Source: Candidatus Sulfotelmatobacter sp. (lineage in GTDB: Bacteria; Acidobacteriota; Terriglobia; Terriglobales; Acidobacteriaceae). From it: a DNA stretch of 39,158 bases. How positions within the stretch are numbered: position 1 is the stretch's first letter; each line of letters opens with the position of its first letter. The notes below the pieces were generated by a model. The model ran no database searches and had not been told where the DNA came from. It worked only from the letters and a program-made list of their open reading frames with translations. Positions 9,237 to 34,214 of the stretch are shown here, piece by piece. Location of the stretch: assembly GCA_030041215.1 (NCBI GenBank), contig JASHOH010000245.1:1-39158 (forward strand), given 5' to 3'. Both the position numbers and the translations under genes were made by a program.

Positions 9237-10899
9237 AGCCAAGCGCGAGAATCTTCGTGGGAAAGCTTTCACCGCCAGTATTGGCGCGAAACTGATCGGG
9301 TCGTTGCTGGCCATGATGCTGATTATTTTTGCGCTTCTCGGGTACCTGAATATTCGCCTGCACCGCCAGCATCTGGAAGCCGCCGCCCTCCTCAGCGCGG
9401 AGCGGGTCAGCGACATCATCCAGCGCAGTACGGCCTATTACATGCTGCGCAATGACCGCGAAGGTCTGTATCACACGATTCAAACTATCGCCGACCAGCC
9501 CGGGGTAGTGAAAATCCGCATCTTCGATCAGGAAGGGCGGATCAACTATTCCACTGATCCCGCCGAAGTCAGCCATGTCGTGAACAAGACGGCCGAGGCC
9601 TGTTACGGCTGCCACAGTCAGTCGCAGCCGCTGGCGCGTTTGAATCGTCCCGATCGTTTTCGCATTTACCGCAGCGGCGATCAGCACCGCGTGCTGGGGA
9701 TCATCACGCCCATTGAGAACCAACCGAGCTGCTCGAATGCTGAATGCCATGCTCATCCTGCTACCCAGCAGGTGTTGGGAGTACTCGACACAAATCTCTC
9801 GTTGGCGCAGGCCGATGCGCAACTGGCCTCGAGCAGCACCCGCATGACCGCCTATACGGCCACCGCAGTGCTGATTGTGGCGGTATTGAGCTGGATTTTC
9901 GTGTGGCGCGTGGTCGCAAGGCCGATCAAAACACTTAAGGAAGGAACGGAGCATCTTTCACGCGGAGACCTCGGCTACCAGATTGACGTTCAGTCGCAGG
10001 ATGAAGTCGGCGACCTTGCTGCTTCCTTCAACAGCATGAGCACGCAGTTGCGGGCAGCCAATGAGCAGATCGTCAACTGGGCTAAGACTCTCGAAGATCG
10101 GGTCGAACAAAAGACAAGAGAGCTAAAGAGCGCTCACGAACACGTCTTGTACGTCGAGAAGATGGCGTCACTGGGAAAGATGGCGGCCGTGGTCGCGCAC
10201 GAAGTGAACAACCCGCTTTCAGGGATTTTGACCTACGCCAAGCTGCTGCGCAAGTGGGTGGCCACTGGTCAGGCAGAACACGAAAAACAGGGCGAGGCCA
10301 TGGAATGTCTGGATCTGATCGCCACAGAGAGCCGGCGCTGCGGAGAACTCATCCACAATTTGCTAACTCTTTCGCGCGGCGCGCCCATGAATGTGCAGGC
10401 CACGGATTTGCGCCAGGTCATTGATCGCTCGTTGCTGCTGGTGCGCCACCCATTGGAGTTGGCCGGAATTGAGCTGCAGCTACATTTGTCGGACGATCTG
10501 CCGCTCGTTCGCTGTGATCCGGCGCAGATCGAACAGGTGCTGCTGGCGCTGATCATGAACGCCATCGACGCCATGCCGCGTGGCGGTAATCTGTGGATTT
10601 CAACCCGGCTGAGCCCTGATGAAACTGGGGCGCAAATCGAGGTGCGCGACGACGGGGTCGGCATCCCGCCTGACATTCTGCCGCACATTTTCGAACCATT
10701 CGTGACGACCAAAGAAAGCGGCCACGGAGTCGGCCTTGGCCTGGCAATCAGCCGCGGCATTGTGGAACGCCACGGCGGCCGAATCGAGGTGGAATCCAAA
10801 GTCGGCCGCGGCACTACATTTACTGTGACGCTTCCAATCGAGTCCCGCCCGGCTGCCCTGGCGGATGCAAGCAGCGATGCCGCCATGAAAGTGAGGTGA
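9223..10899 (+). CDS. Sensor histidine kinase with periplasmic haem-c motifs
   Basis: 558 residues. The first membrane helix spans about 22-44, a periplasmic sensor about 45-205, the second helix about 208-230, HAMP about 230-282, the dimerisation/phosphorylation helix with VVAHEVNNPL (His326), and a complete ATPase domain (NAIDAM, DDGVGIPP, FVTTKESGHGVGLGLA). The sensor region holds Cys127-Tyr-Gly-Cys130-His131, a classical CxxCH haem-c site, and Cys170-x4-Cys175-His176, a CX4CH variant. A redox- or gas-sensing role through covalent haem is therefore likely (inference). The start overlaps the HybB-like gene by 14 bases, and the stop overlaps the response regulator. Confidence 0.85.
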   Translation: MQEIEAKRENLRGKAFTASIGAKLIGSLLAMMLIIFALLGYLNIRLHRQHLEAAALLSAERVSDIIQRSTAYYMLRNDREGLYHTIQTIADQPGVVKIRIFDQEGRINYSTDPAEVSHVVNKTAEACYGCHSQSQPLARLNRPDRFRIYRSGDQHRVLGIITPIENQPSCSNAECHAHPATQQVLGVLDTNLSLAQADAQLASSSTRMTAYTATAVLIVAVLSWIFVWRVVARPIKTLKEGTEHLSRGDLGYQIDVQSQDEVGDLAASFNSMSTQLRAANEQIVNWAKTLEDRVEQKTRELKSAHEHVLYVEKMASLGKMAAVVAHEVNNPLSGILTYAKLLRKWVATGQAEHEKQGEAMECLDLIATESRRCGELIHNLLTLSRGAPMNVQATDLRQVIDRSLLLVRHPLELAGIELQLHLSDDLPLVRCDPAQIEQVLLALIMNAIDAMPRGGNLWISTRLSPDETGAQIEVRDDGVGIPPDILPHIFEPFVTTKESGHGVGLGLAISRGIVERHGGRIEVESKVGRGTTFTVTLPIESRPAALADASSDAAMKVR

Positions 10900-12269
10900 G
10901 CGAGGTGAATACACACGGAAAACTGCTGATTGTGGATGACGAACTCAGCGTGCGCGATTCACTGAGCAAGTGGTTTCGCGAAGAAGGCTATGAGGTTGCG
11001 ACAACCGAGAACGCCAGTGAGGCACTTACGCTTCTCGCGCAACAGCGCTTCGACGTCGCCCTGGTAGACATTAAGATGCATGGCACCGATGGCATCGAGT
11101 TGCAGCGCCGCATGCACGAAATCGATCCCGAGCTGATGGTGATCATCATGACTGGCTACGCGTCGGTTGAGACTGCGGTGGCCGCATTGAAAAATGGCGC
11201 ATACGATTACGTCACCAAGCCGCTCGATCCCGACGACATCGCGCATCTGGTCAAGAACGCGCTGGCCCACAAACGCGCGACGCAAGAGAATGCACTTCTA
11301 CGCCAAACCGTGGCCGAAGCCTCGCACCCCGGCGACTTGATCGGGCAGAGCGCCGCCATGCGCAAAGTCTTTGAAGCCATCGAAACCGTCGGCCCAACAG
11401 ATGCGACCGTGCTCATTACTGGCGAGAGCGGCACGGGAAAAGAGCTTGTCGCCCGCGCCATCCATCTGGCAAGTGTGAGAAGGTTTCATCCTCTGGTTGT
11501 AATCCATTGCGGCGCGCTCACCGAAACTCTGCTGGAAAGCGAACTCTTCGGCCACGAAAAGGGAGCGTTTACGGGCGCGCAATACCGCAAGAAGGGAAAG
11601 TTCGAACTCGCCGAGGGTGGGACCGTTTTCCTCGACGAAATCGGCGACATCACGCTGAAAACTCAGACTGACCTGCTGCGCGTGCTCCAGGAGCGTGAGA
11701 TCACCCGCGTTGGCGGCAACCAGATCATCAAAGTCGATTTCCGCTGCATCGCCGCAACTAATAAAGATCTGGAGAAGCTGATCGAGGAAGGAAAATTCCG
11801 GCCCGACCTTTTCTACCGGCTGAATGTGTTCCGCATCGAACTGCCTCCGCTGAGCGCGCGCCGCGAAGATATTCCGTTGTTGGTCGACCACTTCGTCCAC
11901 AAATTCTCGCTGGCCATGAACAAGCGCATCACGCGCGTCTCGGCCGCGGCCATGACGCAATTGCAGCGCCAGCCCTGGGTCGGCAATGTGCGCGAGCTGG
12001 AAAATGCCGTGGAGCGCGCCATGGTTGTGGGGCAGGAACCGGAACTTCGCGAAACAGATTTCATATTCAAGCTGCCGGGGGTGCAGGCGGCAGGCAAAAA
12101 ACTGGAAGACATGGAGCGAGCCCACATCCTGCGCGTGCTCGAAGAATGCGGGGGCAACCAAAGCCATGCCGCGGAAGTCCTCGACATCGACCGCGTCACG
12201 CTTTATCACAAGTTAAAGAAATACGGCTGGTCGCGATCTTCGATGAAGGCCGATGAAGTCGCCCGGTGA
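10896..12269 (+). CDS. NtrC-family sigma-54-dependent response regulator
   Basis: 457 residues, complete. The receiver domain carries LIVDDE, LVDIKM as the phosphoacceptor region and a KPLD lysine. The AAA+ domain has Walker A GESGTGKE, the sigma-54 contact loop GAFTGA and Walker [14 protein letters not shown]-terminal Fis-type HTH reads [27 protein letters not shown]. The GTG start overlaps the kinase stop (GTGA); GTG 10905 is an alternative. It is the cognate regulator of the haem-c kinase and should activate sigma-54 promoters. No correctly spaced -24/-12 site was found in the window, so its targets are unknown. Confidence 0.92.
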
Positions 12270-12277
12270 CGGCGCCC

Positions 12278-12826
12278 ATGAAGCTGCTGCATCTGTTGCC
12301 GATCGGGAGCGTGGACCATGTACTGCTGAAGGATCTCGGTCCCGCGCTTGAGGAAACTTTCGGCGTGGCGTGCAGCACTTTGCCGGCGCGTCTCGATCCT
12401 GAATTTGCTTTTCACGGCGAGCGCCAGCAATATCATTCCTCAGAAATTCTCCGGCACATGCAGAACTTCCTGACTGTCGATTCGTGGCGCTTGCTGGGTG
12501 TCGCCGAGGTCGATCTCTACATTCCCATTCTTACTTTTGTTTTTGGCGAGGCGCAGGTCGGCGGCCCATGCGCGCTGCTATCCACTCACCGCCTGCGGCA
12601 GCAGTTCTACGGTCTTCCTGCCAACAGCGAGATTTTCCGGCAGCGCATTATCAAGGAAGCCGTTCATGAAGTCGGCCATACCCTCCACCTGACGCACTGT
12701 GACGACTATCGCTGCGTGATGGCTTCGTCCCACGCAGTGGAATGGATCGATCTGAAGGAAAGCACGCTGTGCCCACATTGCCGCAACGTTGCGCAGTTGA
12801 AGTCGCGGTCGCCGCTCGTTCCTTGA
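12278..12826 (+). CDS. amzA: Archaemetzincin family zinc metalloprotease (M54)
   Basis: 182 residues with the family signature HExxHx5HCx4CxM and a later CxxC: His130, Glu131, His134, His140, Cys141, Cys146, Met148, Cys165, Cys168. The first part binds the catalytic zinc and the cysteines a second, structural zinc. The position normally held by Gly in HExxHxxGxxH is His137 here (HEVGHTLHLTHC). ATG 12278 has GGTGA upstream; GTG 12266, overlapping the regulator stop, is an alternative. The substrate is unknown, as for most of the family. It is cytoplasmic (no signal) and lies in one operon with the two-component system. Confidence 0.85.
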   Translation: MKLLHLLPIGSVDHVLLKDLGPALEETFGVACSTLPARLDPEFAFHGERQQYHSSEILRHMQNFLTVDSWRLLGVAEVDLYIPILTFVFGEAQVGGPCALLSTHRLRQQFYGLPANSEIFRQRIIKEAVHEVGHTLHLTHCDDYRCVMASSHAVEWIDLKESTLCPHCRNVAQLKSRSPLVP

Positions 12827-14404: not shown

Positions 14405-14791
14405 ATGAACAGCTTACGTGCTCTTATCGTGGATGATTCGTCGGTAATGCGCAAGATTGTGGAACGATCATTGCGCCAGGCGGGCATCGACCTGAATCAG
14501 GTGATCGAGGCTGGAAACGGGGCCGAAGCTCTGGCTGTACTGCAGGAACAGCAGGTCGATCTGATTCTTTGTGACATCAACATGCCGGTGATGGATGGTC
14601 TGGAGTTCATCAAGCAGTTGCGCGAGGTGGAAAAAGCCAAAGGGGTGCTCGTCATCATGATTACGACGGAGGGCAGCGAGGCACACGTGGTGCAAGCCCT
14701 GTCATGCGGCGCGCGCGGGTATATCCGAAAGCCGTTCACGCCGGAGCAGGTGAAGACCCAAGTGATCCCAGCGCTGGCAGGAAAATCATGA
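14405..14791 (+). CDS. cheY: CheY-like single-domain response regulator
   Basis: 128 residues, receiver domain only. Asp10/Asp11 (LIVDDSS) bind magnesium, Asp57 (LCDINMPVMDG) is the phosphorylation site, a Thr sits in MITTEG and Lys109 in RKPF. It therefore acts by protein-protein contact, typically with the flagellar switch. The stop overlaps the start of cheX (ATGA), so regulator and phosphatase are translated together. Confidence 0.9.
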   Translation: MNSLRALIVDDSSVMRKIVERSLRQAGIDLNQVIEAGNGAEALAVLQEQQVDLILCDINMPVMDGLEFIKQLREVEKAKGVLVIMITTEGSEAHVVQALSCGARGYIRKPFTPEQVKTQVIPALAGKS

Positions 14792-15273
14792 ACACAGCGA
14801 ATGAGTTGTTGGCCACAAGCGGCACCCGGGAACGATGGACGTCGCTGATGGAACTGGCGACGCGGGAAGTCTTCCAACTGATGCTGTCATCCGAACTGAA
14901 GGCCGCCACAACCGAAGCCGATCCCTCCCAACCAGTGACCTCAATGGTCGGCCTGGCGGGAGAGCTGTGCGGTGTGCTCAGCGTACGTTGCGAAGAGAAA
15001 GCCGCAGTGCAGATGACCTGCAAAATGCTGGGAGTACCGGCGGAGAAGGTCAACGCCGAAATGCCGGATGCACTGGGCGAAATCTGCAACATGGTTGCCG
15101 GCAACTTTAAAAACAAAATCACCGGCCTGGGCGATGGTTGCATGCTTTCGCCCCCGACCGTAATCAGCGGCAGCGACTACACCACCTACTCGATCGCAGA
15201 TAAACCCGCACTTGAAATCAGACTTCTGTTTGAGGGCATGCCGCTAGTGGTGTCGCTGGAAATTCATAGCTGA
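14788..15273 (+). CDS. cheX: CheX-family CheY-P phosphatase
   Basis: 161 residues. The signature helix reads ALGEICNMVAGNFKNK, with Glu98-x2-Asn101 as the dephosphorylation pair of CheC/CheX/FliY proteins. Only one such helix is present, as expected for CheX (CheC has two). Its gene overlaps cheY by 4 bases, which fits its substrate being that CheY. It converges on the minus-strand HDOD/small-ORF end. Confidence 0.82.
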   Translation: MNTANELLATSGTRERWTSLMELATREVFQLMLSSELKAATTEADPSQPVTSMVGLAGELCGVLSVRCEEKAAVQMTCKMLGVPAEKVNAEMPDALGEICNMVAGNFKNKITGLGDGCMLSPPTVISGSDYTTYSIADKPALEIRLLFEGMPLVVSLEIHS

Positions 15274-15420: not shown

Positions 15421-16338
15421 TTACTCCTTGTGGCTTGTGCCGAAAATGATATCCACAAGCGCGGCGATCTCGCCAACTGCTTCGTCAAGTTCGAACGAAA
15501 AGCGGGCCAGGTCCATCTGCTCAAGGGCCTGGTATTCATTCGCCAGAATTGCCCAGGCCGGATCGTGAGCCAGATCGACCCTTCGCCGCTCATAATAGCC
15601 GTAGCCCAGATTCCGCATACGGCAGAGAAGATCGCTCAGATGAACCAACGCGACCAGAGGCTGCGCGGAATGGCTGCGTTCGGGGTGGTGATGGTAGGCA
15701 ATCGCCTGAAGCATGTCATCTGCCAGCCGCCACTTTTGGGCCAGAGCAAGGCCCGTATCGCAATGGCAGAAGCCCATTGTGGCTAGCTCAGCTTCCTCCA
15801 AGGGAACCTGCTGGGTGGAGGCGTGCTCCATGGCGGCGGCGAATTCCTTGGAGAAGGTCATGCAGTTTACGAGAAAACCAATATCGTGCAGCAGGCCGGC
15901 AATGTACGCCTTGTCGCCATCAGAGGCCGCGAGCTTTTCAGAAAATTTCCGGCATACCATAGCGCAACCGAGGGAATGGCGCCAGTAATTTGTGGGATCG
16001 ATCGTCCAGTCTTTGACTGAGAAGACATTGCCCATGCAACAAGTGAGAAGAATGGTTTCCACTTTGCGCAGTCCCAGGCTAATAACCGCCGACTTGATGG
16101 ATTCGGGAGCCCTGGCCAGACCGAACAAGGGAGAACTAGCCATGCGCAAACATTGGGCCGCGATGGTGTTGTCGTAAGAAACGAGTTTCACCACCTCCTC
16201 CAGCTTCACTTGGTCGATGGGCAAGTTCAGCAGATTCAGCAAGGGCAAAAAGACGGCCGGAATCGTGGGGAGAGTTTCGATCTGCTTAACCCGCTCGCGG
16301 ATGTGATTAACCGTAGATGGGGCGAGAGATGAGGTCAT
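15421..16338 (-). CDS. HDOD domain signalling protein
   Basis: 305 residues with the HDOD domain over about residues 15-215: LPTIPAVFLPLLNLLN, SYDNTIAAQCLRMASSPLFG, SAVISLGLRKVETILL, AYIAGLLHDIGFLV and AIAYHHHPE. HDOD proteins are HD-GYP relatives that usually lack enzymatic activity and act in signalling or motility control. HDIG-like residues (LHDIGF) are present, but the full metal set was not checked. ATG 16338 overlaps the cheR stop (ATGA), which decides the start. It is the penultimate member of a flagellar/chemotaxis transcript. Confidence 0.85.
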   Translation of the reverse strand: MTSSLAPSTVNHIRERVKQIETLPTIPAVFLPLLNLLNLPIDQVKLEEVVKLVSYDNTIAAQCLRMASSPLFGLARAPESIKSAVISLGLRKVETILLTCCMGNVFSVKDWTIDPTNYWRHSLGCAMVCRKFSEKLAASDGDKAYIAGLLHDIGFLVNCMTFSKEFAAAMEHASTQQVPLEEAELATMGFCHCDTGLALAQKWRLADDMLQAIAYHHHPERSHSAQPLVALVHLSDLLCRMRNLGYGYYERRRVDLAHDPAWAILANEYQALEQMDLARFSFELDEAVGEIAALVDIIFGTSHKE

Positions 16339-17240
16339 GGCTTGCCACCACCGAGGGACGGTTTCCAATGGGCAATTGCTCCGGGAAAATGCACGAGGTG
16401 AAACTTGTCATTCAGATTCAACAGCGACTCTGATGTTCCCAGGAAGAAGTACCCGCCATAATTCAAGTTTGTAAAGAAATGGTCGATCACTTTGGACTTC
16501 GACGGGCCATCGAAATAAATCAGAACGTTGCAGCAGAAAACCAGGTCCATGCTTTTCATGAAGAGCATGCGGGAGTCATCCTGGAAGTTCAGCCGGCTGA
16601 AGCTGACGAGTTTCTTTACTTCGGGACGGACCTGTAATTTCTTATCGTCGACGACGGAGAAATACTTTCTCTTGAAATATTCGGGGGTGCAGCGCAGGGC
16701 ATAGTCGCCGTAGATGGCGGTATTGGCCGCTTCAATCGACCGGTCATTCAGGTCGGTGGCGAGAATCTCGACCGTCCAGCCCTTCAACAGGGCGGTGCTT
16801 TCTTCAAGCATGTTCATGGCGAGCGTGTAGGTTTCCTCGCCGGTAGAACAGCCCGCGCTCCAGATGCGGATCCGTCGCGTGATCTGCCGGGTTTTATCCG
16901 CCGCTAATTCCGGCAAAATAACTTTGCGCACGGCATCGAGCTGGGGCTGGCTGCGGAAGAAGCACGTTTCTCCAATGGTGAGCTCGTTGAGAAGCTGGCG
17001 GAGTTCGCCGTCGCGGCTCGGATGGGCAGTAAGATGTTCCCAGTAACCGCGCGGCGACTTTGTGCCGACCTGCTTCATGCGGCGTTCGCAGCCGCCAACC
17101 AGGAGATACAACTTCTCTTCCGACTTGTACATGCCCGAAACCTTATAGACCAGATCGCGAATCTGGCGATACACAGGATCGATGACGGCAGCGCCATCCG
17201 GCGGTGATGAAAGGGATCCAGCGATTTGCATTCCTGCCAT
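16335..17240 (-). CDS. cheR: Chemotaxis protein methyltransferase CheR
   Basis: 301 residues. The N-terminal helical domain is followed by the SAM-dependent methyltransferase with TIGETCFFR, IRIWSAGCSTGEETYTLAM (SAM-binding), ATDLNDRSIEAA and DLVFCCNVLIYFD. The enzyme methylates glutamates on chemoreceptors during adaptation. Start 17240 is set by overlap with the preceding stop (TAATG); 17252 would add MGKI. Its usual antagonist CheB is represented only by the damaged C-terminal piece directly upstream. Confidence 0.9.
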   Translation of the reverse strand: MAGMQIAGSLSSPPDGAAVIDPVYRQIRDLVYKVSGMYKSEEKLYLLVGGCERRMKQVGTKSPRGYWEHLTAHPSRDGELRQLLNELTIGETCFFRSQPQLDAVRKVILPELAADKTRQITRRIRIWSAGCSTGEETYTLAMNMLEESTALLKGWTVEILATDLNDRSIEAANTAIYGDYALRCTPEYFKRKYFSVVDDKKLQVRPEVKKLVSFSRLNFQDDSRMLFMKSMDLVFCCNVLIYFDGPSKSKVIDHFFTNLNYGGYFFLGTSESLLNLNDKFHLVHFPGAIAHWKPSLGGGKP

Positions 17241-18073
17241 TATCTTGCCCAAGGCTCCAGCGCCATAGGATCCACACCGGCGACAGATCTGAGAGGTGCA
17301 CGGCTTCGAAGCACGCGGCGGGTGATCTCATGGCTGAGTTGATTGAGGGGGTAAACACCATCCGCCTCGCCGGAGGCATAGACCAAGCCCGGCATCCCCC
17401 AGACCACGGAGGAGGGTTCGTCCTGCACGATGACTTGACCGCCGCGCTGATGGATGCAGCGAGATCCGATCACACCATCGGCACCCATGCCGGTCATAAC
17501 CACGGCAAGAGATTCCGGCCCGTAGGCCTCGGCCACCGAGCGGAAAAGAACATCGACTGCTGGCCGGCATGAATTCTCCGGCGGGGCCTGATTCAGGCCC
17601 AGAACACACGACAGGGCTGTGCGCTCTACCACCATGTGAAAGTTGCCGGGAGCGATCCATGCGTGGCCGCCGGTGAGAGCGGTATTAGCGGATCCTTCGT
17701 CTATAGGAATTTGCGAGTGAGAGGCCAAACGCTCGGCCAGTAAACGGGTGAAGATGGGCGGCAGGTTTTGGGAGATGTTGATAGTCACCAGGTCGCCGAC
17801 GCGGGAAGCTTTGTAATCGGCGACCAGGTTGGCCAGCCGGCCATTGTCAACCCAAAGACTGCCAAGACTGCTGGGTGCAGGACCTGGGCCTGTTGGTCCG
17901 GACATGCGCCGCACATAATCGGCGAGCGTGTCCTTCTTGGCATTCTTGTCTTTGTCGCGCGCTCCCGCGAGTGCAGCGAGCGAAATGACTATGCACGCAA
18001 GCAAAATCTGAGCGACGAGTTTGCCGAATGTTTTTGAACGGTGTTGCATAAACTCTCTTGCAGTCGCTCTCAT
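17240..18073 (-). pseudogene. In-frame chimera: FlgH N-terminus joined to CheB C-terminus
   Basis: 277 residues of two unrelated halves. Residues 1-100 match flagellar L-ring protein FlgH: signal/lipoprotein-like start, DYVRRMSG, SLGSLWVDNG and YKASRVGDLVTINI, then the match ends. From about 102, the match is to CheB methylesterase: LPPIFTRLLAERLA, GGHAWIAPGNFHMVV, SVAEAYGPESLAVVMTGMGADG and DEPSSVVWGMPG. The join is near 17,770. CheB's catalytic Ser and the His of QHMPP are lost (QNLPP here); Asp199 remains. FlgH lacks its whole C-terminal half. Neither function should work. The start overlaps the flgA stop. This is a genomic deletion (taking flgI and others) or an assembly join. Confidence 0.8.
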
Positions 18074-18657
18074 AGATTCGCCGTCAGTTCACCTGCGCCG
18101 ACCACTTCAGCCCGCAGGATTCGGTTTCCGTTCTTGAGACGGGCACGAACGGTTTGCCCAAGGGATCCCGCATCCAGACAAGTCACAAGCAATGCGACGC
18201 GAATTCCGCCACCGTCCCAGGTGAGTAGTGCCGTCTGCCCGGTTTTGACAAGCCGCGGCGCCGTGTTCTCTGCTGAGTTTGGCGGCTTCGCCTGGCCGGG
18301 TTGAGAATTGTCAATCTCTTTGTGGGGATTTCCGCCATGTGCCCAAACCAGGAAAGGCACGCAAGCTTGTGGTCTGGCGCAGCGCAGAACAAATTCCCAA
18401 CGTTGTAGACCGGGGTTCCACTTTGTGCGTGTGAGTTCAAGTTGGGCGTTTGCGGGAAGATTTTGCGCGGCCGCGCAGTTTAAGCTGTCCAACAGACGAC
18501 CTGCGTCTGTGCCGTCACCGGCACCAGAGGTTGCGATAAAGCCGGCAATATCGCGACAGGATTTGACCGCGCTCGCATCGAAGCCCTTTGCCAAGCGCAA
18601 CCCCAGGCAGCAGACCGCAAGCATTAAGAAAATGCGAGTTGTCCGTGACTTCTTCAT
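18070..18657 (-). CDS. flgA: Flagellar P-ring assembly chaperone FlgA
   Basis: 195 residues. An N-terminal signal (MKKSRTTRIFLMLAVCCLGL) precedes a divergent N-terminal part and a C-terminal SAF-like domain: RLVKTGQTALLTW, VALLVTCLDAGSLGQTVRARLKNGNRILRAEVVGAGEL. FlgA acts in the periplasm to help FlgI assemble the P-ring; no flgI is left in this window. It sits between flgG and flgH as in typical flagellar operons and overlaps the next start by 4 bases. Confidence 0.82.
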   Translation of the reverse strand: MKKSRTTRIFLMLAVCCLGLRLAKGFDASAVKSCRDIAGFIATSGAGDGTDAGRLLDSLNCAAAQNLPANAQLELTRTKWNPGLQRWEFVLRCARPQACVPFLVWAHGGNPHKEIDNSQPGQAKPPNSAENTAPRLVKTGQTALLTWDGGGIRVALLVTCLDAGSLGQTVRARLKNGNRILRAEVVGAGELTANL

Positions 18658-18674: not shown

Positions 18675-19466
18675 TTACCGGCCGAGATTGTTGATGGTCT
18701 GGAGCATCTGGTCGGCGGTATTTACTACGCGCGAGCTGGCTTCGTACGATCGCTGCGCCACGATCATGTTCACGAATTCAGTTACTACGCTGACGTTCGA
18801 CTGCTCGAGCATGCCCTGAATAATGGTTCCTAGGCCTTCGCTGCCGCCAGGCGTGCCAACGATGGGATCCCCGGAGGCGGTGGTCTGTAAGAACAGGTTG
18901 CTGCCAGTGCTGTTCAGTCCTCCGGGATTGTTGAAGGTTGCGAGTTGCAGCGTGCCGACTTGCTGGGCTGCGGTCTGTCCAGCGAGAGTCACGCTAACCG
19001 TGCCATCGGAGCCGATGGTGATCGAGGTCGCGCCCGAAGGAATGGTGATGGCGGGCTGCACCGCATCTCCATCCTGATCAACCAGGTTGCCGTTGGCGTC
19101 GGTGTGAAAACTTCCTGCGCGTGTGTAGGCGGTCTGACCGTCGGGGAGCAGAACCTGGAAGAAGCCCTGTCCCTGGATTGTGAGATCAAGAGGATTACCA
19201 GTTTGGCTGAAATCTCCCTGGGTCTGAATGACTTCGGACGCGGCGGAGCGCGTGCCGAGACCGACCTGCAAACCGGCGACGAGTGTGGTCTGCTGCGGGG
19301 CGGCGGCGCCCGGCATGATCAGGTTCTGATAAATCAGATCTTCGAATTGTAGGCGGCGGCTGCGGAAGCCGGCCGTGCTCGAGTTCGAGAGATTGTTCGC
19401 GATGTTGTCGAGATTGAGTCCCTGGGCCGTCATGCCGCTGGCTGCGGTGTAGAGTGCGCGCATCAT
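18675..19466 (-). CDS. flgG: Flagellar distal rod protein FlgG
   Basis: 263 residues, full length. The N-terminal rod motif reads LYTAASGMTAQGLNLDNIANNLSN. The central D1 region includes GDFSQTGNPLDLTIQGQGFFQV. The C-terminal rod motif is EFVNMIVAQRSYEASSRVVNTADQML. It forms the distal rod of the flagellar basal body. Two ATG codons are adjacent (19466 and 19463). The usual purine-rich ribosome-binding site is replaced by a tandem 14-bp repeat array ending 2 bases before the start. Confidence 0.92.
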   Translation of the reverse strand: MMRALYTAASGMTAQGLNLDNIANNLSNSSTAGFRSRRLQFEDLIYQNLIMPGAAAPQQTTLVAGLQVGLGTRSAASEVIQTQGDFSQTGNPLDLTIQGQGFFQVLLPDGQTAYTRAGSFHTDANGNLVDQDGDAVQPAITIPSGATSITIGSDGTVSVTLAGQTAAQQVGTLQLATFNNPGGLNSTGSNLFLQTTASGDPIVGTPGGSEGLGTIIQGMLEQSNVSVVTEFVNMIVAQRSYEASSRVVNTADQMLQTINNLGR

Positions 19467-19601: not shown

Positions 19602-20336
19602 TTAGACCTTGGGCAAATCCTGCACGGCAATCTGATTGAGCTGGCCATCAATCGCTCCCATAGCACGGCCAAGCATATCTGTGTTGCGCTGAACAGTGAT
19701 CAACTGCACGACCGCTTCGGTGGGGCTCACGTTAGACCCCTCAAGCATTGCCTGACGAACAGTTGAGCCTGTGGCGGATAAGGCAGAGCCCGCGGGTGCG
19801 GCGTAGGTTGCATTGCCGAGCGCGGTCAGATTCGTCCCGGGAGCGAATTCCGCCAGTTGTAGCTTGTCAACGACGTTGCCATCGACCGAAATTGTTCCGT
19901 CGGAGCTGATGGCTACATTGCGGCTGGGAAGGGTGATTGGTCCCAACTCGCCGAGAACGGCATTCCCTTCGCTGGTGACCAGCTGGCCTATGTTCGTCAG
20001 ATGGAAACCGCCGTTGCGCGCGTAGATGACTCCCTGCGCTGACTGCGCGGCGAAGAATCCGCTGCCGGCAACTGCTGCGTCGAGCGGATTGCCAGTGGGC
20101 GCGAAGCTGCCGGAGCTTAGATCGAGACGGCTGCCGCTTAACACGCCAAAGTTGTTTACGACACTGTTCAGGTAGTTCGTGGTGACGGTTCCAGGGCCGG
20201 TCAACAGCGAACGAAAGGTCGTCTGCTCGCCGCGATAGCCGGTTGTGGTTGTATTCGCGAGATTGTGAGCCACCAGATCAAGGGCCTGAGTCTGTGCCGC
20301 GAGTCCTGAGCAAATTGCGTAGTAGCCGCTATCCAT
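19602..20336 (-). CDS. flgF: Flagellar basal-body rod protein, FlgF-like
   Basis: 244 residues. The N-terminal rod motif is GYYAICSGLAAQTQALDLVAHNLANTTTTGYRGE. The flagellar basal-body core domain follows (GSFAPTGNPLDAAVAGSGFFAA), and the C-terminal motif is TEAVVQLITVQRNTDMLGRAMG. FlgF and FlgG are paralogous proximal and distal rod proteins. Shorter length and position ahead of flgG favour FlgF. It is the first gene of the visible flagellar run. Confidence 0.85.
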   Translation of the reverse strand: MDSGYYAICSGLAAQTQALDLVAHNLANTTTTGYRGEQTTFRSLLTGPGTVTTNYLNSVVNNFGVLSGSRLDLSSGSFAPTGNPLDAAVAGSGFFAAQSAQGVIYARNGGFHLTNIGQLVTSEGNAVLGELGPITLPSRNVAISSDGTISVDGNVVDKLQLAEFAPGTNLTALGNATYAAPAGSALSATGSTVRQAMLEGSNVSPTEAVVQLITVQRNTDMLGRAMGAIDGQLNQIAVQDLPKV

Positions 20337-28731: not shown

Positions 28732-29829
28732 ATGAAGTATCTGGATGAATACCGGGATCAACGCATTGCGCACGCCCTGGTGGCGGAAATTTTCCAGGTC
28801 ACGACGCGGCCGTGGGTGCTGATGGAAATTTGCGGTGGGCAGACACACACGATCATGCGTTACGGACTGGATGAACTATTGCCGCGGGGCGTGGAACTCG
28901 TGCATGGGCCGGGGTGTCCCGTATGCGTGACGCCGCTCGAAACCATCGACAAGGCCATCGAACTCGCGTTGCGGCCGGACGTAATTCTGGTTTCGTACGG
29001 GGATATGCTGCGAGTTCCGGGATCGAAGTCAGATCTGTTTCGGGCCAAGGCGCTAGGGGCGGATGTGCGCATTGCGTACTCGCCTCTGGAGGCGGTGAAG
29101 ATTGCCCGGGCGCGCCCAGACCGCAAGGTGGTATTTCTTGCGATCGGATTTGAGACGACGGCCCCTGCCAATGCGATGGCGGCGTGGCAGGCCAAACGCG
29201 AAGGATTGACGAATTTTTCCATGCTGGTTTCGCATGTGCTGGTGCCGCCGGCGATTCGGGCTTTGATGGCATCAGCAGAAAATCGGGTGCAGGGGTTTAT
29301 TGCGCCGGGGCACGTCTGTACGGTGATGGGATGTGGCGAATACGAGCGGCTTGTCGCAGACTTCCGTGTGCCGATTGTGGTGGGCGGCTTCGAACCGGTT
29401 GATCTGCTGGAAGCGATTCTCATGCTGGTGAAGCAACTGGAAGCTGGCGAGGCCCGGTTGGAAAATCAATATGTGCGCTCGGTCTCGTATAAGGGCACAG
29501 TCATGGCACAGCAGATCATGGCTGAAGTCTTCGAGGTCGCGGACCAGAAGTGGCGCGGGCTGGGGCCGATTCCGCGAAGTGGGCTGCGGCTGAGCGAGAA
29601 GTATGGCGACCTAGACGCTGACCGGGTTTTTGGCCTCGCAGCGTTGACGGTGGATGAACCCGCCGAGTGCATGAGCGCGCAGGTGCTGCAAGGATTGAGG
29701 AAGCCGACGGAATGTCCTGCGTTTGCAATTCGCTGCACGCCGGAAAACCCACTGGGAGCGCCGATGGTGTCATCTGAGGGTGCGTGCGCGGCGTATTACC
29801 AATACCGGCGGCATGCGAAAGCGAGTTAG
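28732..29829 (+). CDS. hypD: Hydrogenase maturation protein HypD
   Basis: 365 residues, the family norm. [46 protein letters not shown] and the C-terminal cysteine-rich stretch ([30 protein letters not shown]) that ligates the [4Fe-4S] cluster are all present. HypD is the scaffold on which the Fe(CN)2CO unit of NiFe-hydrogenase is assembled with HypC. It starts the plus-strand hypDEABF operon. Confidence 0.95.
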
Positions 29830-29837
29830 GAGGAGGC

Positions 29838-30899
29838 GTGTCAAGCAAAAGCATTGCTGAGTTGATCTGCCCCGCGCCGCTTCCAGCGAAAGACACAGTG
29901 TTGCTCGGCCATGGCAGCGGGGGAAAGTTGAGCGCTGATTTGCTGCGGGAAGTGTTTCTGCCTTTTTTGAATAATCCTGTGCTGGCGCGGCTGGACGATC
30001 AGGCGGTTGTGGCGATTAATGGGCAGAGAGTGGCGATCACAACTGATTCGTTTGTGGTGAAGCCGCTGTTTTTTCCTGGGGGCGATATTGGGTCGCTAGC
30101 GGTGCATGGAACTGTAAACGATCTGGCGATGGGCGGAGCGGTGCCACTGTTTCTGAGTGCTGCTTTCATTCTTGAAGAAGGCCTGGCGGTTGAGCAATTG
30201 AAGCGCGTGGTGAATTCGATGCAGCGGGCTGCCGAAGCTGCGGGAGTTCAGGTGGTGACGGGCGACACCAAGGTCGTCGAGAAAGGCAAGGGCGACGGGC
30301 TGTTTATCACGACAACGGGTATCGGGGTCGTGCCTGAGGGGGTGGAACTTTCGGCGGACCGGGCGCAGCCGGGAGACAAGGTTTTGTTGAGCGGTCCGAT
30401 TGGCGAGCATGGCATCGCGATTTTGGCGCAGCGTGAGGGATTGGAGTTTGAGACAACGATTAAAAGTGACAGCGCACCTCTACACACTCTGGTCGCTCGG
30501 ATGCTGGGGGCGAGCCGGGAGATTCGTTGCATGCGCGATCCCACGCGAGGCGGCGTATCGAGTACGCTAAATGAAATCGCGCAACAGTCACGCGTGAGCA
30601 TCGAACTAGAGGAGTGGACCATTCCGGTGAGCGAAGACGTTCGCGGGGCATGCGAGTTGCTCGGGCTGGATCCTCTTTATGTGGCAAATGAGGGCAAGCT
30701 GGTGGCCATTGTGGCGCCCGAGGCTGCGGATCCTATTCTGCAAGCAATGAGAAAGCATTCGCTGGGCAAAGAGGCATCCATTATCGGAAGCGTTCAAGAG
30801 GAACACGCCGGCTTGGGCAGGGTGATGATGCGCACGACGCTTGGAACGAAGCGCATCGTGGATATGCTGGCGGGCGATCAGTTGCCGCGCATCTGTTGA
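29838..30899 (+). CDS. hypE: Hydrogenase maturation protein HypE (thiocarbamate dehydratase)
   Basis: 353 residues. GTG 29838 is chosen because TAGGAGGAGG directly precedes it and because the conserved N-terminus (VLLGHGSGGKLSADLL) follows. It ends in Pro-Arg-Ile-Cys; the terminal Cys353 is the residue carbamoylated by HypF and dehydrated to thiocyanate, the cyanide source. It also shows the PurM-like ATP-binding features GDTKVVEKGKGDG and MRDPTRGGVSSTLNE. Eight bases separate it from hypD. Confidence 0.95.
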   Translation: MSSKSIAELICPAPLPAKDTVLLGHGSGGKLSADLLREVFLPFLNNPVLARLDDQAVVAINGQRVAITTDSFVVKPLFFPGGDIGSLAVHGTVNDLAMGGAVPLFLSAAFILEEGLAVEQLKRVVNSMQRAAEAAGVQVVTGDTKVVEKGKGDGLFITTTGIGVVPEGVELSADRAQPGDKVLLSGPIGEHGIAILAQREGLEFETTIKSDSAPLHTLVARMLGASREIRCMRDPTRGGVSSTLNEIAQQSRVSIELEEWTIPVSEDVRGACELLGLDPLYVANEGKLVAIVAPEAADPILQAMRKHSLGKEASIIGSVQEEHAGLGRVMMRTTLGTKRIVDMLAGDQLPRIC

Positions 30900-30905
30900 G
30901 GGGCC

Positions 30906-31286
30906 ATGCACGAGCTGGGCATCGCGAACTCGATTTTGGAGGCGGTCAGGACCGAAGTGGCGCGAGTGCCGGGCAGATATGCGACGAAAGTCTCGCTGAG
31001 GATCGGCGAAATGACGGCGGTCGATCCTGAGGCGCTGCGGTTTAGCTTTGAAATCCTAAGTCAAGATACTGACCTGGCTGGCTTGCAGCTTGAAATCGAA
31101 ATCTGTCCACGGCGAAATCGCTGTGAAGAGTGCGGCCAGGAATTCACTGTTCGAGATTATGACATTCAATGTCCGCAATGCGGCAGCCTGCGGACGCAGT
31201 TTTTGAGCGGCGACGAATTTGCTTTCGGCTACCTGGAGGTGGAGGAATATGGAACGAGTTCCGTTGGAGCGCAAAGTACTGAATGA
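30906..31286 (+). CDS. hypA: Nickel-insertion metallochaperone HypA
   Basis: 126 residues. It begins MHELGIANSI (His2 is the nickel ligand) and has a zinc ribbon with two CxxC pairs (RCEECGQ and QCPQCGS). HypA hands nickel to the hydrogenase large subunit with HypB. Its 3' end overlaps hypB by 38 bases, so its C-terminal tail (EYGTSSVGAQSTE) is longer than the family minimum. Confidence 0.93.
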   Translation: MHELGIANSILEAVRTEVARVPGRYATKVSLRIGEMTAVDPEALRFSFEILSQDTDLAGLQLEIEICPRRNRCEECGQEFTVRDYDIQCPQCGSLRTQFLSGDEFAFGYLEVEEYGTSSVGAQSTE

Positions 31287-31929
31287 GAATGACCGGATCG
31301 CTGCCGACCTGCGTGCCCGGTTTCAGGAGCAGGGAACTCTTTGTCTGAATTTCATCAGCTCGCCCGGATCGGGTAAGACCAGTTTGCTGGAGCGGACATT
31401 GTCGAGTCTTCCAAAAGGCGAGAGGGTTGCAGTGTTGACGGGTGACATTCAGACCGAGAACGACGCGAACCGGCTGAAACGATACGGCTTTCCCGTCAAG
31501 CAGATTACGACCGGTGGTACCTGCCACCTCGACGCGCGGATGATCGAGCGACACCTTGCAGATTGGCCCCTGGAAGATCTTGATCTGCTGTTTATCGAGA
31601 ACGTGGGGAACCTCGTCTGTCCATCAAGCTACGATTTGGGGGAAGAGGCGAAGATCGTTTTGCTCAGCGTCACCGAAGGTGAAGATAAGCCGCTGAAGTA
31701 TCCGTCGATATTCTTCAAGTCACAGTTGATGATCCTGAACAAGGTCGATCTTTTGCCTTACGTGCCCTTCAATGTCAATGCGGCGGTGGAGAATGCGCGG
31801 AAAGTTCATCCGGGAATCGAGATCGTGAAAGTGTCTTGCCTGAAAGGAAACGGGCTGGATGAGTGGTTAATCTGGCTTGAGAAAAAACGGCAAGCGCAAA
31901 AAGAAAAGCAGCCAGCAGCAGTGCGCTGA
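31249..31929 (+). CDS. hypB: Nickel-insertion GTPase HypB
   Basis: 226 residues. P-loop SSPGSGKTS, DIQTENDA, TTGGTCHLDA (Cys and His of the G-domain metal site), ENVGNLVCP, and the NKVD guanine-specificity motif. There is no N-terminal histidine-rich storage stretch and no CxxCGC high-affinity nickel site. ATG 31249 follows GGAGGTGGAGGA, and the gene lies partly inside hypA. Confidence 0.94.
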   Translation: MERVPLERKVLNENDRIAADLRARFQEQGTLCLNFISSPGSGKTSLLERTLSSLPKGERVAVLTGDIQTENDANRLKRYGFPVKQITTGGTCHLDARMIERHLADWPLEDLDLLFIENVGNLVCPSSYDLGEEAKIVLLSVTEGEDKPLKYPSIFFKSQLMILNKVDLLPYVPFNVNAAVENARKVHPGIEIVKVSCLKGNGLDEWLIWLEKKRQAQKEKQPAAVR

Positions 31930-31934
31930 GGCGT

Positions 31935-34214
31935 ATGGAAGTTCGGCGCCAAATCGAAGTCTCTGGAATTGTTCAGGGAGTTGGTTTCCGGCCCTACATT
32001 TATCGCCTTGCGACCGAACGCAAGCTTAAAGGAAACATCTGCAACACATCGGGCGGAGTGGTCATCGAGATACAAGGCCCGGCTGAGACCGTTCAGAACT
32101 TCGTTGAGACTGTCCCGAAGGAAGCGCCACCTCTGGCGCGAATCACGAATCTCGCAATACGAGAAATATCCTGTAACGGCGAGCAGACTTTTTCCATCAT
32201 TCACAGCCACGCCGGTGAAGAAGTTCACACCCTGATTTCGCCGGATGTGGCGATCTGCGCTGATTGCCTGCGCGAGATGTTTGACCCCTCCGATCGGCGC
32301 TATCTCTATCCTTTTATTAACTGCACGAATTGTGGGCCGCGGTTCACGATTGTGCGCGGCATTCCGTACGATCGGCCGAGCACCTCGATGGCTGTGTTTC
32401 CCATGTGTGCGGCGTGTCGGGCGGAGTATGAAGATCCTTTGAACCGCCGCTTCCATGCGCAGCCGAACGCGTGCTGGGATTGTGGGCCGCAGGTTGAGTT
32501 GTGGGACTCTGCGGGACGAAAAATCGATGTCGTGGATCCAGTCGCGGAAGCGGTGTGGCAGTTACAGGCGGGAAAGATTGTAGCAGTGAAAGGGCTGGGG
32601 GGATTTCATTTGGCCGCCGACGGGACGAATCGGGCGGCGGTTTCTTTGTTGCGGGAACGGAAGCGGCGCGTGGAAAAACCGTTTGCTGTGATGGTGCCGG
32701 ATTTGGCTGCGGCGCGGGAGATATGCGAGATCGACGCTGCAGCTGAAAAGGTAATGCAATCGGCGCAACGGCCGATCGTTTTGCTTTTGAAGAAAAATTC
32801 CGATCTTGTCGCTGACGAGGTTGCGCCATTTAACAGATATCTGGGAGTATTCCTGCCTTACACTCCGCTGCATTACCTGCTTTTCAACAGCGGCAAGTTC
32901 AAGGCCCTGGTGATGACGAGCGGAAATCTGAGCGAAGAGCCGATCGCAATTGATAATGCTGAGGCGGCAAAACGACTTCGCAGTCTCGCGGATTTTCTTC
33001 TGGTTCACAACCGAAAAATCCTGCTGCGGTGCGATGATTCGGTAGTTCGCGTGGTCAATGGAGTGACGCGCCACATGCGTCGCTCGCGCGGTTTTGTGCC
33101 AGTGCCCGTGTTTCTGAAAGACAAGCAGCCGGCGGTTCTGGCTGTCGGAGGCGAACTGAAAAATACGATTTGCCTGACCAAGGGTGAGCATGCGTTTTTG
33201 AGCCAGCACATTGGCGATCTCGAAAATTCCGAGGGCTACGGGTTTTTCGAGGAAGCCATTGAACATCTCGAGCGAATTCTGGAAATACAGCCGGAAACGA
33301 TTGCCTATGATCTGCACCCGGATTACTTCTCTACAAAGTGGGCGCTTGCGCAATCGGCAATTCGCGCGGTTGGTGTGCAGCATCATCATGCGCATATCGC
33401 GAGCTGCATGGCCGAGAACCATCTGGATGGTCCGGTCATTGGTTTTGCCCTGGACGGAACGGGCTACGGAACCGATGGGAAAATATGGGGCGGGGAAGTG
33501 CTGGTTGCCGATTACGCGGAGTTCGAACGTGCGGCCCACTTCGAGTATGTGCGGTTGCCCGGCGGCGAGGCGGCGATTCGTGAGCCGTGGCGCATGGCGG
33601 TGAGTTATCTTGCGCGGCATTTTGGAGACGATCTGTGGAATTTGGACATTCCCTTTGTCCGTAATCTGGATCGGCGAAAAACCGACGTGTTGCTACAGAT
33701 GATTAGAAAAGAAGTCAATTCGCCGCTGACCTCCAGTTGTGGGCGGCTTTTCGACGCGGTTGCAGCTCTCGCCTGTATTCGGCAGCAGGTGAATTACGAA
33801 GCGCAGGCTGCGGTTGAGTTGGAGATGGCGGTTGAGCCTTCGGATGCTTGCGGCAGTTATCCATTCGAGCTTGTTCTCGATGGCGATCAGTGGATCATCG
33901 GCACGCGGCCGTTGTTTTTCGCGTTAGTGGAGGATCTTGCGCGCGGGTCCAGCAAAGGCACAATCAGCGCGCGTTTTCACAATGGATTGATTGAGTGTTT
34001 TGCCGAAATCGCAAGTCTGCTTAGAAAAAAAACTCAGTTGAAGCAGATTTGTTTGAGTGGTGGAACCTTCCATAATGCTTACCTTTCGCAGGGGCTGGAA
34101 AAGCGGCTTGCGGAAGATGGTTTCGAAATTTTCACTCACCATGAAGTTCCTGCCGGAGATGGCGGTTTGAGCCTGGGGCAGGCGCTCGTGGCGGCGAATC
34201 GGGACAAAGGTTGA
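31935..34214 (+). CDS. hypF: Carbamoyltransferase HypF
   Basis: 759 residues with all four parts. Acylphosphatase domain (GIVQGVGFRPYIYRLA); zinc fingers (CADCLREMFDP, CTNCGPRFTI, CAACRAEYEDP, CWDCGP); YrdC-like domain (VAVKGLGGFHLAADGTN, EKPFAVMVPD); and a Kae1-like carbamoyltransferase domain (HHHAHIASCMAEN, GFALDGTGYGTDGKIWGGE, CLSGGTFHNAYL). It makes the carbamoyl group for HypE. It is the last gene of the operon, 5 bases after hypB. Confidence 0.95.
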   Translation: MEVRRQIEVSGIVQGVGFRPYIYRLATERKLKGNICNTSGGVVIEIQGPAETVQNFVETVPKEAPPLARITNLAIREISCNGEQTFSIIHSHAGEEVHTLISPDVAICADCLREMFDPSDRRYLYPFINCTNCGPRFTIVRGIPYDRPSTSMAVFPMCAACRAEYEDPLNRRFHAQPNACWDCGPQVELWDSAGRKIDVVDPVAEAVWQLQAGKIVAVKGLGGFHLAADGTNRAAVSLLRERKRRVEKPFAVMVPDLAAAREICEIDAAAEKVMQSAQRPIVLLLKKNSDLVADEVAPFNRYLGVFLPYTPLHYLLFNSGKFKALVMTSGNLSEEPIAIDNAEAAKRLRSLADFLLVHNRKILLRCDDSVVRVVNGVTRHMRRSRGFVPVPVFLKDKQPAVLAVGGELKNTICLTKGEHAFLSQHIGDLENSEGYGFFEEAIEHLERILEIQPETIAYDLHPDYFSTKWALAQSAIRAVGVQHHHAHIASCMAENHLDGPVIGFALDGTGYGTDGKIWGGEVLVADYAEFERAAHFEYVRLPGGEAAIREPWRMAVSYLARHFGDDLWNLDIPFVRNLDRRKTDVLLQMIRKEVNSPLTSSCGRLFDAVAALACIRQQVNYEAQAAVELEMAVEPSDACGSYPFELVLDGDQWIIGTRPLFFALVEDLARGSSKGTISARFHNGLIECFAEIASLLRKKTQLKQICLSGGTFHNAYLSQGLEKRLAEDGFEIFTHHEVPAGDGGLSLGQALVAANRDKG

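Follow-up and report, generated by a model that had tools for sequence, protein, structure and literature searches.

In bacteria that have turned non-motile, flagellar genes decay by deletion; Shigella is an example. The methylesterase CheB has its site of action in the cytoplasm. The locus described here joins parts of two known proteins, the L-ring protein FlgH (PF02107) and CheB (PF01339; structures 1chd and 6ymz), in one reading frame. It was found in the window, the whole 39,158-nucleotide stretch of DNA from Candidatus Sulfotelmatobacter sp. that was analyzed, which is the entire contig C139 of the genome G000; the other G codes used below denote genomes of relatives. Judged from titles and the opening parts of abstracts, none of the papers listed describes a fusion of the FlgH-CheB type.

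The Chimeric Reading Frame

Positions 17240-18073 of the window, minus strand, hold a single open frame of 277 codons with its ATG at 18073 and its stop codon ending at 17240. No internal stop or frameshift was found in these 277 codons. The gene order around the frame is flgF-flgG-flgA-chimera-cheR-HDOD, as the sequence-only reading had described it up to cheR. The features are as follows.

19602..20336 (-), flgF, intact frame (FlgE/F/G domains; named flgF by order and match to relatives)
18675..19466 (-), flgG, intact frame (92-94% full length to G029, G010, G008, G009, G025 and G005)
18070..18657 (-), flgA, intact frame, 4-nt overlap with the chimera start (ChapFlgA)
17762..18073 (-), N-terminal segment of the chimera derived from FlgH, residues 1-104, with the conserved strand up to ...GDLVTINISQNL (Pfam, FlgH alignment, codons)
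17761..17762 (-), junction CAA AAC CTG / CCG CCC ATC (codon comparison with intact relatives)
17243..17761 (-), C-terminal segment derived from CheB, residues 105-277; receiver domain and catalytic Ser and His missing (Pfam, PDB alignment)
16335..17252 (-), cheR of a non-flagellar chemosensory cluster, intact frame (CheR; 80-84% to the CheR of the G008 cluster)
15421..16368 (-), HDOD protein, same cluster as the cheR (HDOD; 77% to G008)
14704..15273 (+), cheX, same chemosensory cluster (CheX; same neighbor in G025)
14405..14791 (+), cheY-like receiver, same chemosensory cluster (Response_reg; same neighbor in G025)

Elsewhere in the window, a hydrogenase maturation row (hypD, an AIRS-type hypE-like gene, hypA, a CobW/HypB/UreG-type gene and hypF) occupies 28732-34214, and a peptidase of family M54 (archaemetzincin-like) is encoded at 12266-12826, directly downstream of an NtrC-type regulator recognized by eye.

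The Pfam FlgH profile matched chimera residues 70-103 (profile positions 4-37 of 172, E 2.7e-6), whereas the intact FlgH of G013 matched positions 4-159. The CheB_methylest profile matched residues 97-250 (positions 27-174 of 174, E 3.3e-42). Aligned with six full-length FlgH proteins of the same genus (G013, G010, G005, G041, G011 and G019), the chimera tracks FlgH to ...GDLVTINISQNL (residue 104) and then diverges. Codon comparison with intact relatives placed the join after FlgH Leu104 (CTG, 17764-17762) and before CheB Pro105 (CCG, 17761-17759). The intact cheB genes of the relatives listed read CAR CAY ATG CCN at this position, and the overlap between flgH and cheB at the join is 2 nt (TG), with the CTG of flgH facing the ATG of intact cheB. 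Frame, Pfam and codon comparison together confirmed the in-frame FlgH-CheB chimera that the sequence-only reading had proposed at 17240..18073; its approximate limits, the first 100 residues and a join near 17,770, were close to the exact values of 104 residues and 17762/17761. By eye, the FlgH N terminus of the chimera is hydrophobic and signal-like and is followed by a linker. Going by the residues retained, the FlgH part left in the chimera should not suffice for an L ring.

The Ser, His and Asp residues of CheB at the positions considered here are presumably the catalytic ones. In the alignment with 6ymz and 1chd, the Ser stretch is absent, as the aligned part of the chimera begins downstream of it, and residue 103 is Asn where the solved CheB proteins have the His of QHM. 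The TGMGADG stretch, which contains the Asp, is retained. No receiver domain appeared in the Pfam result for the chimera; the intact CheB of G008 has receiver-like sequence ahead of its methylesterase part, as judged by eye. The CheB part matches G008 CheB at 75% over 155 aa. In a scan of genome contigs, the best match with a name came from a MAG called "Terriglobia bacterium" (69%, residues 96-259), and the 80 matches listed were mostly CheB genes from many phyla. The loss of the catalytic Ser and His claimed earlier therefore held against both structures, and so did the wider claim that the needs of both functions are gone, namely most of FlgH and the CheB receiver, Ser and His. With no CheB catalytic center, the product should have neither FlgH nor CheB activity, and a CheB annotation at this frame is to be read as a fragment without catalytic center.

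Flagellar Genes in G000 and Its Genus

The G000 genome comprises 5.03 Mb in 251 contigs and is rated 100% complete and 1.7% contaminated; the absences reported for it refer to this 251-contig assembly. No match was found in it to FlgI (PF02119), FlhA, FliP or Flagellin_N, nor was a second FlgH or a second CheB of the chimera type. When the N-terminal part of G008 CheB was used as query for the missing half of cheB, the best G000 match was a paralogue on contig C171 (45%), and the other 38 matches were weaker and lay mainly over the receiver part. The C171 gene was also the only other CheB-like match of the chimera query in G000; inspection of its DNA by eye showed that it keeps the STGG stretch and QHM. 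Of the flagellar genes looked for, G000 retains only flgF, flgG, flgA and the flgH stub. Motility has presumably been lost in G000. The proposed loss of the P-ring gene agreed with the lack of a FlgI match. The search of the genome for flgI and the missing halves, suggested by the same reading, found none in the assembly. Its alternative, that the assembly skips a segment, is unlikely because neither the flagellar markers nor second copies of the missing halves were found, and it is further opposed by the overlap of only 2 nt at the join.

Among 45 genomes of the genus, FlgI was detected in 9, FliP in 5, FlhA over the cut-off in 5 (6 at E 0.001) and Flagellin_N in 9, the last with a profile that also hits FlgL. 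In G010, for example, the sole Flagellin_N hit falls on the contig stretch holding FlgL. Given these low counts, most genomes of the genus appear to be without flagellar genes. FlgG-like matches were present in 12 of the 45, one of them weak, and the remaining 33 gave no flgG match.

Four genomes of the genus (G005, G009, G025 and G010) showed a separate pattern. They contain flgG, flgI and Flagellin_N-type genes (flgL, and a flagellin-like gene in three of the four), while FlhA and FliP were not found in them at completeness values of 72-95%. In G005, G009 and G025, flgF adjoins large frames (414-441, 1116, 1042 and 514-527 aa) and not flhA; by size only, these frames resemble an efflux-pump pattern. 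Partly uncertain as it is, the four genomes appear to hold late flagellar genes without the export gate.

Source of the CheB Part

In the flagellar locus of G019 the order is flgF-flgG-flgA-flgH-flgI-...-flgK-flgL, then fliD-fliS-fliC on the opposite strand, mot genes and cheR-HDOD-cheB; several of these gene names we take from position and recall. A different row, cheB-cheR-HDOD, was present in 8 of 11 loci laid out (G008, G015, G029, G025, G024, G049, G020 and G042) and absent in G038, G094 and G079. The cheB frames are 368-383 aa long in G008, G015, G029, G025 and G024, of which only the G008 frame was read through. In G025, cheX and cheY lie beyond HDOD, as in the window. A deletion within the operon into the flagellar cheB was rejected as source of the chimera, since the G019 order is cheR-HDOD-cheB and the flagellar CheB of G019 matches the chimera at only 38%. 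The neighboring cheR and HDOD genes gave a further reason for this rejection: they match the flagellar copies of G019 at 52% and 43%, compared with 80% and 77% for the other cluster of G008.

Among the matches listed, at least 12 same-genus genomes have a CheB of the chimera type at 54% identity or more. FlgI was found in 3 of these 12 (G029, G025 and G041), which indicates that the chemosensory cluster of the chimera CheB mostly occurs without flagella. In G008, G029 and G041, flgH and the chimera-type cheB are on different contigs. From these separate contigs and the distinct cluster, we infer that the event in G000 joined two loci. A long deletion is one possible route, if both loci had the same orientation on one replicon, and another kind of rearrangement is a second. 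The earlier proposal that a single deletion explains everything needs correction: because the cheB came from another cluster, that deletion would have to be very long or be replaced by a rearrangement.

FlgH Chimeras in Relatives

A second chimera was found on contig C39 of G008, where a frame of 172 codons joins FlgH (profile positions 3-38 of 172) in frame to CheR (positions 127-188 of 195) and is followed by a flagellar-type HDOD gene (70% to G011). Its join reads ...CAA AAT CTG / GAC ATT, and the FlgH part ends at the same codon as in G000. FlgI, FlhA, FliP and Flagellin_N gave no match in G008, which has a completeness of 86%. In a tree of flgF, flgG, flgA and the N-terminal FlgH part, G008 grouped with G010 with 100% support, and G000 and G013 split off together, likewise with 100%; G013 contributed only 335 residues. 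Common ancestry of the two chimeras was rejected, as flgH is full-length in the tree partners G013 and G010 and the two tails are not the same. On this gene tree the G000 and G008 chimeras are independent. Both parent genes of the G000 chimera are full-length and separate in relatives.

A third chimera is present in G358, from another genus of the same family. FlgH runs to frame residue 163 and is joined in frame to an FlgL tail; Pfam gave this tail no name, and it was assigned by its match to the FlgL of G051 and G255. The parent genes flgH and flgL lie ~5 kb apart in G051, and the break is elsewhere in flgH than in G000 and G008. The G358 locus L180 also contains, at 9895-11516, an out-of-frame join of FlhA (to residue ~346, G011 numbering) to FlgG (from residue 74, G051 numbering). 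With this join, the decaying flagellar locus of G358 holds two deletion scars.

In a survey of the family, FlgH was found in 148 of 300 genomes, with three matches weaker than 1e-20 (G000, G358 and G345; that of G345 lies at the end of a contig). A survey of the class gave 197 of 399 genomes and again three such matches (G000, G489 and G443). Some genomes were covered by both surveys; G008 was part of neither. A conserved family of FlgH-CheB fusions, which the sequence-only reading had named as the mark of a real new protein, was not found in the relatives surveyed; the two other FlgH chimeras, in G008 and G358, are different ones.

The Shared Break Codon

G000 and G008 have the identical FlgH end ...CAA AAY CTG|, and their lineages are separated by relatives with intact flgH. 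In a gene of 242 codons, chance would give the same codon with a frequency of ~1/242 and the same nucleotide with 1/726, a post hoc calculation on n = 2. Local similarity between flgH and cheB at the join, 9-14 of 24 nt in 20 gene pairs, is reached by 0.1-16% of registers and thus appears somewhat raised. For flgH and cheR (the cheR of G029 left out) it was 4-9 of 24 nt, with 15-90% of registers as good, a chance level in all 8 pairs tested; a homology-driven join was rejected as the cause on this ground. An inverted repeat at 17787-17829 of the window (13-nt arms, 92% complementary, 17-nt loop) lies 25 nt upstream of the join and is the strongest hairpin in the flgH region scanned, both in G000 and in G013. 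It is not predicted in G008 or G010, and the hairpin was rejected as a common cause. No exact repeat >12 nt was found between the join (60 nt on either side) and the rest of the window.

Three of the four scars are in frame, and the chance of 3 or more of 4 is 0.11; selection for in-frame joins was rejected as a cause on this count and is weakly suggested at best. Our first guess for the break at the same codon is coincidence. A preference for breakage at the codon that follows the first conserved strand of FlgH (QNL) is rather unlikely, be it through fragile DNA, through an element that targets the site or through selection for an exported FlgH stub that stays in frame. Under such a preference, independent losses of the flagellum in these bacteria should leave FlgH fused to whatever gene happens to lie on the far side.

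Evolutionary Rate of the Remnants

Over 150 gap-free columns, the terminal branch of the CheB tail was 0.270 in G000 and 0.147 in G008 (1.8x). With gapped columns included, the values were 0.321 and 0.150. The corresponding branches were 0.104 and 0.105 for cheR and 0.126 and 0.161 for HDOD. In 155 shared columns, unique changes in G000 and G008 numbered 18:6, 17:2, 14:9, 15:8 and 12:7 with five outgroups; relative-rate tests were significant with two of the five (p 0.023 and 0.0007) and gave 0.21-0.40 with the others. The ratio of tail to cheR was 2.60 in G000 and was equaled or exceeded by 3 of 8 intact lineages (G015 2.61, G025 2.77 and G042 2.82). G000 ranked highest only relative to HDOD (2.13) or to both genes (1.17), with G042 next (1.54 and 1.00). 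A first reading from gapped columns, clear relaxed constraint, was weakened by the gap-free columns. The rates weakly suggest relaxed constraint, or faster evolution, in the CheB tail.

No acceleration of flgF, flgG, flgA or the FlgH part was observed in G000; as remnants they may be very young or remain under constraint. The dS between G000 and G013 is ~0.6-0.7 for flgA and the FlgH part. On the gene tree, the event that formed the chimera is younger than the split of G000 and G013.

Discussion

The chimeric frame is, with high probability, the scar of a chromosomal rearrangement, a long deletion or another kind, in a decaying flagellar locus. Such a rearrangement would have taken away the flagellar genes from flgH codon 105 onward and, on the far side, those parts of a cheB from a separate chemosensory cluster that encode the receiver domain and the Ser/His region. 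The join would have fallen in frame by chance, so that the row flgF-flgG-flgA-chimera-cheR-HDOD could still be read through. Given the signal-like FlgH N terminus, recognized by eye, any product would probably be exported and kept away from cytoplasmic receptors. Overall, ordinary decay of a flagellar locus is most likely, with the repeated breakpoint mildly surprising: random deletion would not lead one to expect that G008 breaks at the same codon, which speaks against a plain scar.

An artefact of assembly or binning, in which two loci were misjoined or the remaining flagellar genes were left unbinned, is very unlikely. The assembly is fragmented (251 contigs), and the two loci are on different contigs in G008, G029 and G041. 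However, four flagellar markers and both missing halves were not found in an assembly with a completeness rating of 100%, the reading frame continues across the join, and in a related lineage the same flgH codon is joined to a different gene. The 2 nt common to both genes at the join are too little for an ordinary k-mer misjoin, which is implausible for that reason. A recurrent break site in flgH, as the target of a mobile element or integrase or as a DNA structure, would account for joins at the same nucleotide in G000 and G008 and is itself unlikely. The identical FlgH end with its low, post hoc chance argues for it, as does the hairpin that G000 and G013 have ahead of the join. Against it, this hairpin is missing from the predictions for G008 and G010, the join and the rest of the window have no exact repeat >12 nt in common, similarity of flgH to the flagellar cheR is at chance in all 8 pairs, and the G358 chimera breaks elsewhere.

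Least probable is a fusion selected for function, either as an exported FlgH module with a new tail or through in-frame joins that keep the downstream cheR and HDOD translated. It would fit the three in-frame FlgH chimeras (G000, G008 and G358), two of them at the same codon in independent lineages, the 277 codons free of stop and frameshift, the intact and unaccelerated flgF, flgG and flgA frames of G000, and a CheB-tail rate relative to cheR inside the range of intact lineages. Against it, the tails differ (CheB, CheR and FlgL), the fourth scar, FlhA/FlgG of G358, is out of frame (p 0.11), and the CheB tail leans toward faster change. Moreover, remnants are seemingly not kept long, as flgG went unmatched in 33 of the 45 genomes of the genus.

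Read as a scar of flagellar decay, G000 seems to capture the loss of the flagellum in progress, and the CheB of another chemosensory cluster would have been disabled as collateral damage. With their independent scars, the relatives form a natural series in which to ask whether gene clusters decay through preferred breakpoints.

Compared with the known systems, residues 1-104 of the chimera align with six same-genus FlgH proteins, but only 4-37 of the 172 positions of PF02107 are kept. Residues 105-277 correspond to the C-terminal part of the CheB methylesterase (PF01339; 1chd, 6ymz) including TGMGADG, whereas receiver, Ser stretch and His (here Asn) are missing and a signal-like N terminus, seen by eye, stands in their place. 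As in the flagellar decay of Shigella, blocks of flagellar genes are lost and truncated or fused genes remain. Unlike there, flgH in G000 is joined to a gene from a different chemosensory cluster, and the break codon in flgH is common to two lineages.
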